From positions 186,001 through 250,000 of the forward strand of contig NZ_JAGFMD010000005.1 of assembly GCF_017592825.1 (NCBI RefSeq): a stretch of 64,000 nt of DNA, written 5' to 3'. Below the pieces are notes generated by a model. It saw nothing but the letters and a program-made list of their open reading frames with translations. It was not told the origin of the DNA and did not search any database. How positions within the stretch are numbered: the stretch's first letter is position 1; the number at the start of each line of letters is the position of its first letter. Source of the DNA: Roseivirga sp. E12. Lineage in GTDB: Bacteria; Bacteroidota; Bacteroidia; Cytophagales; Cyclobacteriaceae. The position numbers and the translations under genes are program-made. This document shows positions 48,704-52,055 of the stretch, piece after piece.

Positions 48704-50215
48704 ATGAGTTTGGAAATCAAAGTTCCTGCAGTTGGTGAGTCAATCACAGAAGTAACCATTGCACAATGGTTCAAGCAAGAAGGAGATCATGTCGAAATGG
48801 ACGAAGTGATCTGCGAGCTTGAGTCAGATAAAGCTACTTTCGAATTGAATGCGGAAGCAGCAGGCACCCTACATATCGTTGCCAGTGAGGGTGACACACT
48901 GGAAATAGGTGATGTCATTTGTAAAATAGACGAGGCTAGTTCAGGCAGTGCTCCAAAGGCAGACGAACCTACTACTGAAGCTAAGCCAGCTCCTGCTTCT
49001 GATGGCCCAAAAGCCACTGGCGAAGTAAAAGAAATGATTGTGCCTACCGTTGGAGAATCCATTACGGAAGTCACCATATCAAGTTGGTTGAAAGCCGATG
49101 GAGATTTTGTTGAATTGGACGAAGTTATTGCCGAGGTTGATTCAGACAAAGCAACATTCGAGTTACCTGCAGAAGCCAATGGTATACTACGCATTGTAGC
49201 GCAAGAAGACGCTACGATTGAGATAGGCGACCTAATTTGTAAGATCGAAGTAATGGAAGGCGGAGCACCTGCAGCGGCTGCACCAGCGCAAAGTACGGCT
49301 GTCGAAGCCACCGAAGCGACAGGCAATAATACCTATGCAACTGGCCACGCTTCTCCTGCTGCAGCTAAGATACTTGCTGAAAAAGGCATCGATGCCTCAA
49401 CGGTAAAGGGTACGGGTAAAGATGGACGTATCACTAAGGAAGATGCCGAAAAAGCACAAGCTACTCCTACCAAACCGACTGCTGCACCTGCACCAGCACC
49501 TGTTGTCCCTGGCAGCAGAAATGAGCGGAGAGAACGAATGACATCCTTGAGAAAGACTGTATCTCGAAGGTTGGTATCCGTGAAGAATGAGACAGCCATG
49601 CTGACCACATTCAATGAGGTGAATATGAAACCGATCATGGACCTTCGTAAGAAATACAAGGATAGGTTCAAGGAAAAGTACGAGGTAGGTTTAGGCTTCA
49701 TGTCCTTCTTTACTAAGGCTGTCACCATGGCCGCTAAAGAATGGCCCGCAGTGAATGCCAGAATTGAAGAGAATGAGATTGTTTATAGCGATTTTGTTGA
49801 TGTTTCGATCGCAGTATCGGCTCCTAAAGGATTGATGGTTCCGGTCATCCGTAATGCTGAATCCATGAGCTTCGATCAAATCGAAAAGGAAATTGTTCGT
49901 CTGGCAACGAAAGCCAGAGATGGTAAGCTGACAATTGATGAAATGACTGGTGGTACTTTCACCGTTACCAATGGAGGGATTTTCGGCTCAATGCTGTCAA
50001 CTCCAATCATCAATGCCCCTCAATCCGCCATCTTAGGAATGCACAACATTGTTGAGCGACCTATGGCTGTAAATGGAGAAGTGAAAATTTTGCCAATTAT
50101 GTATGTGGCCTTGTCTTACGATCATAGAATAGTTGATGGTCGTGAATCTGTGAGCTTCCTAGTAAGAGTAAAAGAGTTACTTGAAGACCCAACACGTTTA
50201 CTACTCGGAATTTAA
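48704..50215 (+). CDS. sucB: 2-oxoglutarate dehydrogenase E2, two lipoyl domains
   Basis: 503 residues. Two lipoyl domains instead of the usual single one in bacterial OdhB: lipoyl lysines are K43 (ELESDKATF) and K149 (EVDSDKATF). A peripheral-subunit-binding domain follows ([15 protein letters not shown] to [14 protein letters not shown]), then the catalytic acyltransferase with the active histidine in [15 protein letters not shown]. It transfers succinyl to CoA. E3 would follow directly but for a 433-bp inserted element after its stop codon. Confidence 0.96.
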
Positions 50216-50218
50216 ATC

Positions 50219-50253
50219 GTATTGAGTACCGAGTATTGGGTACCAAGTACTGA
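50219..50253 (+). repeat. Left heptad array, five 7-bp units
   Basis: Five head-to-tail 7-mers: GTATTGA, GTACCGA, GTATTGG, GTACCAA, GTACTGA, consensus GTAYYRR. A degenerate sixth, GAACAAG, follows. The period is exactly 7 with no slips, and the array ends 12 bp before the small gene's ATG. Confidence 0.85.
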
Positions 50254-50265
50254 GAACAAGACTTA

Positions 50266-50616
50266 ATGCATAAATACAAAGAATTAGAAGTTTGGAAGAA
50301 GTCCATAGCTCTAACAAAACGCATTTACTTGATTACATCAAGCTTCCCTTCTGAAGAGAAGTTTGGTTTGAAAAGTCAAATTAATCGAGCAGCCGTATCA
50401 ATAGCTTCAAACATTGCTGAAGGCGCTGGCAGGAACTCTAATAAAGAGTTTAATCAGTTTTTAGGGATAGCAATTGGTTCAATGCATGAAGTAGAGACAC
50501 AAATAATCATTTCGTTTGAAGTTGGCTTCATAGAAGAAACAGTTAAGGATGAAATCTGTGATCAAATATCTCAGTTAATCCTAATGACAAAAGGATTAAA
50601 AAATCACTTAGTCTAA
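50266..50616 (+). CDS. Four-helix-bundle protein (23S rRNA intervening-sequence type)
   Basis: 116 residues of the bS23/IVP-like family (TIGR02436-type): YKELEVWKKSIALTKRIYLIT, FPSEEKFGLKSQINRAAVSIASNIAEGAGRNSNKEFNQFLGIA, then IGSMHEVETQIIISFEVGF. The fold is a four-helix bundle that forms ring-like pentamers in known relatives, including the Avd accessory protein of diversity-generating retroelements. Its role here is unknown. It lies alone between odhB and lpd, same strand, inside inverted arrays of 7-bp repeats; its stop codon TAA is part of the first right-hand repeat unit. Confidence 0.85.
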   Translation: MHKYKELEVWKKSIALTKRIYLITSSFPSEEKFGLKSQINRAAVSIASNIAEGAGRNSNKEFNQFLGIAIGSMHEVETQIIISFEVGFIEETVKDEICDQISQLILMTKGLKNHLV

Positions 50617-50641
50617 GTACTAGCTACTTGGTACTAAGTAC
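50614..50641 (-). repeat. Right heptad array, four 7-bp units, inverted
   Basis: Plus-strand units TAAGTAC, TAGCTAC, TTGGTAC, TAAGTAC; on the minus strand they read GTACTTA, GTACCAA, GTAGCTA, GTACTTA, the same GTAYYRR-like family as the left array (GTACCAA is shared exactly). The first unit contains the small gene's stop codon. Confidence 0.85.
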
Positions 50642-50654
50642 TAACGATACAAAA

Positions 50655-52055
50655 ATGAAATACGATGTAACAGTAATAGGATCAGGACCCGGTGGCTACA
50701 TTGCAGCTATCCGATGTGCCCAGCTAGGTATGAAAACTGCCATTATTGAGAAGTATAACACTTTGGGCGGTACATGTTTGAACGTAGGCTGTATTCCTTC
50801 AAAAGCACTTTTAGACTCTTCAGAACATTACCACAATGCAGCCCATACTTTCGGTGAGCATGGTATTGAATTGAAAGACTTAAAGGTGAACCTGAAACAA
50901 ATGATCGACCGAAAGGCAGGCGTTGTGAGTCAGGTAACAAGCGGAGTCGACTTCTTAATGAAGAAGAATAAGATCGATGTTTTTCATGGCATGGGCTCTT
51001 TCGTAGATAAAAACACCATTCAGGTTACTGATGCTGAAGGCAAAGTCACCAAAGTGGAAACTGAAAAAGCCATTATAGCAACAGGTTCTAAACCAGCTTC
51101 TCTCCAATTCATCAACATAGACAAAAAGAGAGTTATCACCTCCACAGAGGCATTGGAACTCAAAGAAATTCCTAAGCACATGATAGTTATTGGTGGTGGA
51201 GTAATTGGAATGGAATTAGGTTCTGTCTATGCACGTCTAGGTGCAGAGGTTTCGGTGGTGGAGTTCATGGATGATATCATTCCATCTATGGACAAAACGA
51301 TGGGTCGAGAATTGAAAAAGTCTCTTAAAAAGTTAGGCTTCAACTTCTACTTAGGACATAAGGTTACCGAAGTAAAAGGAACTGCGAAAACAGTAACTGT
51401 AAAAGCAGAAAACAAGAAGGGTGAGCTTGTGGAAGTAAAAGGTGACTACTGCCTTGTTTCAATTGGAAGAAAGCCATACACTGAAGGTTTGGGACTGGAA
51501 AACGTTGGTATAAAAACTGATGACAGGGGTAGAATCGAAGTCGATAGTCATTTAGTGACTTCGGCTGATAACATCTACGCCATTGGTGATGTAATTAAAG
51601 GCGCTATGTTAGCCCACAAAGCCGAAGAAGAAGGAGTGTTCGTTGCCGAAGTCATTAACGGTGAAAAGCCTCATATCAATTATAACCTCATCCCAGGTGT
51701 AGTTTATACATGGCCTGAGGTTTCGGCCGTTGGTTTGACGGAAGAACAACTAAAAGAAAGTGGCAGAGCCTATAAGTCTGGTTCATTCTCTTACAGAGCT
51801 CTTGGACGGGCACAAGCATCTATGGATGTTGCTGGCTTAGTCAAAGTATTGGCAGACAAAGAAACCGATGAAATACTTGGTGTTCATATGATAGGTGCCC
51901 GTACAGCGGATATGATTTCAGAAGCAGTTGTTGCTATGGAGTTCAGGGCTTCAGCTGAGGATATTGCACGCATGTCTCATGCACATCCAACATACTCAGA
52001 AGCTTTTAAAGAAGCATGTTTAGCAGCTACGGATAATCGAGCGTTGAACGCCTAA
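50655..52055 (+). CDS. lpd: Dihydrolipoyl dehydrogenase (E3)
   Basis: 466 residues from ATG 50655 (MKYDVTVIGSGPGGY). It reoxidises dihydrolipoyl groups of E2 with NAD. The FAD motif GSGPGGYIAAIRCAQLG, redox disulfide GGTCLNVGCIPSKALL, NAD motif VIGGGVIGMELGSVYARLG and the C-terminal His-Glu motif MSHAHPTYSEAFKEA are all present. A longer frame starting at TTG 50628 would begin inside the heptad repeats and is rejected. Ends the E1-E2-E3 operon with a strong hairpin. Confidence 0.96.
   Translation: MKYDVTVIGSGPGGYIAAIRCAQLGMKTAIIEKYNTLGGTCLNVGCIPSKALLDSSEHYHNAAHTFGEHGIELKDLKVNLKQMIDRKAGVVSQVTSGVDFLMKKNKIDVFHGMGSFVDKNTIQVTDAEGKVTKVETEKAIIATGSKPASLQFINIDKKRVITSTEALELKEIPKHMIVIGGGVIGMELGSVYARLGAEVSVVEFMDDIIPSMDKTMGRELKKSLKKLGFNFYLGHKVTEVKGTAKTVTVKAENKKGELVEVKGDYCLVSIGRKPYTEGLGLENVGIKTDDRGRIEVDSHLVTSADNIYAIGDVIKGAMLAHKAEEEGVFVAEVINGEKPHINYNLIPGVVYTWPEVSAVGLTEEQLKESGRAYKSGSFSYRALGRAQASMDVAGLVKVLADKETDEILGVHMIGARTADMISEAVVAMEFRASAEDIARMSHAHPTYSEAFKEACLAATDNRALNA

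Follow-up and report, generated by a model that had tools for sequence, protein, structure and literature searches.

A small predicted helix-bundle gene with matched heptad arrays at an operon junction

The unit between odhB and lpd

The window analyzed here, a stretch of 64,000 nucleotides from Roseivirga sp. E12, contains a small S23/IVP (four-helix-bundle) gene of unknown role between two metabolic genes, odhB (E2; 48704–50215, + strand) and lpd (E3; 50655–52055, + strand, with its start codon at 50655). The names of the two host genes come from the initial annotation and from the sequence, and not from a family search. The inserted unit is 433 bp long. Five heptads, GTATTGA GTACCGA GTATTGG GTACCAA GTACTGA, occupy 50219–50253 (+), followed by a gene for a 116-aa protein at 50266–50616 (+), and by four heptads in the opposite orientation at 50614–50641 (−), which read GTACTTA GTACCAA GTAGCTA GTACTTA when reverse-complemented. 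The stop codon TAA (50614–50616) opens the first right-hand unit. The outer ends, ATCGT at 50216–50220 and ACGAT at 50644–50648, are also inverted, and the two inverted arms are 83% complementary over 18 nt. In contrast to this insertion, the spacing between E1 and E2 is 12 bp.

The observation made in the initial annotation, that a helix-bundle gene is framed by inverted heptad arrays between odhB and lpd, is therefore confirmed. However, its description of the repeats as exact is wrong: the units are degenerate, since no two left units are identical and only one of the four right units (GTACCAA) obeys GTAYYRR. No run of three or more GTAYYRR appeared in 400 shuffled window-strands (mononucleotide shuffles in 2-kb blocks), and the left array is the only such run in the window. 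A 28-base identity scan of the window found nothing at period 7 at its threshold, and a maximal-segment score was used instead; at the genome-wide threshold of that score (10), the left array of the window is not listed.

The protein belongs to PF05635 (E 3.3e-38), the only Pfam family recognized at E 0.001 or less, and no transposase, nuclease or HUH domain was recognized. Its structural model (mean pLDDT 96.4) has 2gsc and 2rld as its best fold matches (E 6.4e-4 or better), and matches Avd of diversity-generating retroelements only weakly (4dwl, Foldseek E 0.059, TM 0.80). The 2gsc and 2rld entries each have five chains, and the Xanthomonas protein is cited as a homopentameric torus (PMC4990558).

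Period-7 arrays across the IVP family

The arrays are not a local oddity. The source genome has nine PF05635 genes, and the family is present in 34 of 39 genomes of the nearest relatives (the source included) and in 232 of 296 sampled Bacteroidota genomes. A scan of the family for flanking 7-bp arrays had been suggested beforehand as a check on the element idea, and we collected 151, later 247, IVP genes with at least 120 bp on each side, after leaving out records without full flanks or length (10 of 53, 7 of 158 and 7 of 254 at successive stages). In the 151 genes, the maximal period-7 self-match is 10.30 upstream and 11.38 downstream, against 3.83 and 3.82 in mononucleotide shuffles, while the other periods from 3 to 13 are at or near background, with a small excess at 8. 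At p 0.05 or less, 127 of the 151 genes have an array on at least one side and 84 on both; in the larger set these numbers are 194 and 127 of 247, and 53 genes show no significant array on either side. The collection is weighted to strong PF05635 matches, and 80 of the listed PF05635 places, not all, were retrieved. Among 28 genes from 12 genomes whose record titles name other groups (MAG labels that were not checked), the corresponding numbers are 23 and 18. One copy of the collection, L192, has CAGGTGA heptads and lies on a MAG contig labelled Bordetella parapertussis, a label that may be wrong. A few copies do not follow the usual orientation, the arrays being direct in locus L204 and having the C-rich side upstream in L388 and L389.

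Each copy has its own heptad, which is shared in inverted form by its two arms. In the 84 copies with both arms, the left arm matches the reversed right arm at 16.35 on average, against 7.13 for the right arms of other copies, and the highest of 5000 permuted means was 8.6. The match also holds among 15 copies at one site (14.20 versus 9.66, p 0.0002). Over all arms there is one core, Y-n-A-G-W-W-n (A 0.72, G 0.89), which is the same in left and in reversed right arms; in the first 211 arms its fit (603) exceeds five column-permuted nulls (327–416).

The heptad also goes with the protein. Between copies at different sites, the mean heptad distance falls from 3.59 (under 40% protein identity) through 3.49, 3.27 and 2.75 to 2.33 (65% or more, 17 pairs), and for the 2159 different-site pairs of at least 50% identity it is 3.10, against 3.42 (sd 0.05) when permuted. 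Same-site pairs under 50% identity are also closer than permuted (3.02 versus 3.42), so site or lineage contributes, and as the pairs are not independent, this shows linkage and not contact. Direct covariation between residues and heptad positions, tried on 127 and on 194 copies, is weak and only suggestive (top Z 6.4 versus 5.7 for the 95% null, with a null maximum of 11.3); an ancestry-corrected coevolution model of residues and heptad positions was not run. Moreover, the protein is not basic: the median net charge is +1, and that of the copy in the window is −1 over the domain.

We next asked whether the arms are selected to pair in RNA, and three tests gave no support for this. Mismatches between the arms do not prefer G:U (64 compatible against 84 incompatible transitions). 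The order of the units hardly matters: shuffling the right-arm order lowers the match from 15.71 to 14.91, with 5 of 76 copies at p 0.05 and 47 of 76 above their null mean, and changes the duplex energy from −26.1 to −25.3 kcal/mol. The sense strand pairs no better than the antisense (better in 58 and worse in 66 of 127). The arms look like two sets of the same sites rather than a mirrored stem, although they could still pair if transcribed.

Turnover at junctions and genomic context

The initial annotation had proposed comparing the odhB–lpd junction among related genomes, and this comparison revealed several different occupants. Genomes are numbered here with G and retrieved loci with L; gene names other than PF05635 rest on the initial annotation or on sequence motifs and not on a family search. 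Among 30 relatives' lpd loci, the gene is present in G000 and G003 (62% identical), decayed with stops in G016, and absent but replaced by a 36–39-nt right-oriented array in G017, G001, G011, G013, G018 and G015. Another heptad run is found in G007, G006, G004 and G014, whereas G005, G021 and G022 have spacers of 15–19 nt; we see no array in such short spacers. G000 is closest to G017 and G001, both without the gene. Fulvivirga aurantia (L149) and a Cyclobacteriaceae MAG (L174) also carry an IVP gene at this junction, although L149 was left out of the lpd tree because its contig ends inside lpd. G019 and G148 carry one directly before lpd, but odhB was not seen upstream of it in G019, and this was not checked in G148. 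In one further relative, G032 (L097), long tandem repeats of about 40 bp (GTTAGATTGTTCGATACAATAG...) lie upstream of lpd. In the IVP tree, the G000/G003 pair falls among IVPs that follow a thiolase-like gene in the same genus (90/92) and the G019/G148 pair falls elsewhere (92/95), suggesting at least two arrivals before lpd, although the starred branches alone do not force this and the bootstrap had not settled. In the source genome (C29:78808–80750), two IVP genes with different heptads (L002 and L007) stand on either side of one thiolase-like gene, and similar close pairs about 1.6 kb apart are listed in several congeners.

At a second junction, 3-HAO/ACMSD, 9 of 18 congeneric genomes hold the gene, in two subfamilies only 22–30% identical to each other (G000 and G005 against seven others). 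A 36-nt array stands alone in G001 and G011, G007 has a 153-bp remnant, and G003 has a 21-bp spacer. Gene-less spacers of 62–75 bp with a period-7 signal are found in five genomes, G008, G006, G004, G014 and G016; their two-armed layout was read by eye and is unclear on the left in G006 and G004. Two of the nine gene-bearing copies (G012 and G018) have no significant array on either tested side. The sister species G000, G017 and G001 hold three different occupants.

Of 215 units with two callable neighbors (32 of the 247 genes lacked these), 185 lie between co-directional genes. The upstream gene is co-directional in 199, compared with 243 of 294 control pairs (p 0.0013), and the downstream gene in 188, which is not significant (p 0.17). 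The median distances are 53 bp from the upstream stop and 49 bp to the downstream start. This arrangement fits a gene expressed by read-through, with arms filling the gap.

Arrays also occur without the gene. In 1.63 Mb of the source genome there are 26 intergenic period-7 segments, against 2–11 for the other periods tested; 7 belong to IVP genes and 19 do not. Of 8 scored segments without the gene between co-directional genes, 7 are oriented like right arms (p 0.07). Three solo GTA-type arrays lie between co-directional genes in L274 (7600–7900, 9200–9500 and 12020–12340), the first two of which stand in a repeated intergenic module with a near-identical sequence before the array. Two inverted arrays about 155 bp apart, with no IVP gene between them, lie between convergent genes in L241 (16542–16817). 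Compact gene-less double arms with a TGAATGN-like heptad (AA in place of AG) fill the space between co-directional genes at L286:13160–13227 and L251:18091–18146. At L113:2869–2913, six perfect copies of TCCTAAC follow what reads as a ribosomal-protein gene cluster, with no IVP gene in the neighboring reading frames listed.

Interpretation and related systems

Taken together, these analyses lead us to favor, with moderate confidence, the view that the 433-bp unit is one copy of a large, old family of small mobile elements of operon junctions, each an S23/IVP gene between two inverted arrays of degenerate heptads, and akin to the 23S rRNA intervening sequence (IVS). The sequences themselves show the arrays, their inversion, the match of the two arms within each copy, the common core, the preference for lying behind a co-directional gene, and the different occupants of the same junction in close relatives. 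The rest is our inference: that the heptads are binding sites, one AG-heptad per protomer, for the ring encoded by the same copy, so that arms and protein change together; that the gene is expressed by read-through from the host operon; and that after gene loss the right array can stay on as the leader of the next gene. Element status and turnover are well supported, whereas recognition is plausible and rests on indirect evidence. Neither binding nor movement was observed, and how the element copies or excises itself is unknown. No target duplication or bp-exact empty site was found, and since the sites with and without the unit are too diverged to align base by base, the comparison does not settle whether a target-site duplication exists; near-identical copies at different sites were not looked for.

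The interpretation offered in the initial annotation is thus partly supported. Its proposal of a discrete element is supported, its suggestion that the protein may bind the arrays is supported indirectly, and its suggestion of a long stem in the message tuning E3 expression is not supported. It had also stated in advance that the element idea would fail if all relatives carried the same gene at this junction without repeats, or if heptad arrays occurred with no association to this family. That condition is half fulfilled, as arrays do occur without the gene, although at two junctions relatives suggest that some are leftovers.

Among the alternatives, an RNA-processing element, whose arms pair in the operon transcript and which is cut out by RNase III as in 23S rRNA, appears unlikely. 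The arms of a copy do pair better with each other than across copies (−26.1 versus −10.6 kcal/mol), the units mostly lie between co-directional genes, and the Coxiella burnetii 23S IVS, with its S23p ORF and heptamers, has a 28-bp terminal stem cut by RNase III at the first repeat (PMC4990558). However, the three tests described above argue against it; RNA ends were not mapped. A host regulatory module, in which the IVP and its arrays tune the downstream gene, for instance by binding the leader of lpd, is likewise doubtful. The leftover right-oriented arrays before lpd are 35–36 of 36 identical in G013, G018 and G015, where third codon positions differ by 40–43%, solo arrays are mostly oriented like right arms, and IVP genes recur beside a thiolase-like gene across the phylum sample. 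On the other hand, the occupant differs between sister species and is often lost, and the spacer of G010/G008, in which we see no array, is conserved too (29 of 32), so leader conservation is not special to arrays. Plain replication slippage without function is very unlikely. Although unit number varies between C. burnetii strains (PMC4990558) and runs without the gene exist, slippage explains neither the fixed period of 7, nor the inverted match of the two arms of each copy, nor the common AG core.

The nearest known system is the 23S rRNA IVS. The C. burnetii IVS shares with the present unit the protein family, a similar length (428–444 nt there, 433 bp here), complementary ends, and tandem heptamers in front of the ORF, GACAGAT in that case, which vary between strains (PMC4990558). 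GACAGAT holds an AG but is unremarkable against the core, as 42% of all heptamers score as high. The present unit differs in lying in a protein-coding operon junction and not in 23S rRNA, and in having heptads at both ends, with a different heptad per copy, and its excision has not been shown; 23S rRNA motifs were found in none of the loci collected when they were sought. Avd has the same fold, but the NCBIfam Avd model gives 19.9 bits against a cut-off of 80; the immediate neighbors are odhB and lpd, and neither a reverse transcriptase nor template and variable repeats were sought. RAYT-REP systems and MITEs resemble the unit in having a gene framed by inverted repeats, gene-less relatives and solo repeats between genes, but here no transposase or nuclease family was recognized and degenerate heptads take the place of palindromes. 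TRAP is also a ring protein with regularly spaced AG-containing sites, but it is an 11-mer of another fold with about 5-nt spacing, whereas the arrays here have 7-nt spacing and both orientations.

A more far-reaching reading, which we consider possible but hold only tentatively, is that S23/IVP rings are sequence-specific heptad readers, each protomer holding one AG-centered 7-nt unit and each copy reading the arrays at its own two ends. In this view, they would form a class of mobile element spanning several phyla, with no recognized nuclease, that seeds operon junctions, leaves gene-less arms and solo arrays, and hands the host new leader sequences; the unexplained heptamers of other bacteria, such as TAACTGA and those of the C. 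burnetii IVS, would be its footprints. The arrays give each protein a concrete, copy-specific candidate ligand with a common core, so that its function becomes testable by a simple binding assay with matched and mismatched pairs. The finding also connects two published puzzles, the heptamers of the C. burnetii IVS and the TAACTGA repeats whose binding protein is unknown. Full-text searches of an open-access library, which excludes most subscription journals and all preprints, did not turn up this link, and searches on heptanucleotide repeats in Flavobacterium, on S23 with tandem, on Avd and on STRR gave nothing on the point.

The TAACTGA repeats (MacGregor 2015, PMC4679880) are intergenic heptads, mostly before start codons, for which the author suggests that an unknown binding protein might be the mobile part. 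They are solo direct repeats, and neither a helix-bundle gene nor S23 is named in the text searched. The reverse complement, TCAGTTA, fits the core, but so do 12% of all heptamers. We expected TAACTGA triples beside IVP genes, and this prediction failed as stated: 12 of 296 genomes have such triples, and 14 of 15 distinct places retrieved lack an IVP-like ORF within about 1.5 kb. G125 has such arrays and no PF05635 match, and G141 has arrays but is not among the matching genomes listed. Arrays thus also live without the gene, as relics or in a role of their own. At the one remaining place, L423 in G164, an IVP-like frame lies on the strand opposite to a TAACTGA array, starting about 50 bp beyond it.
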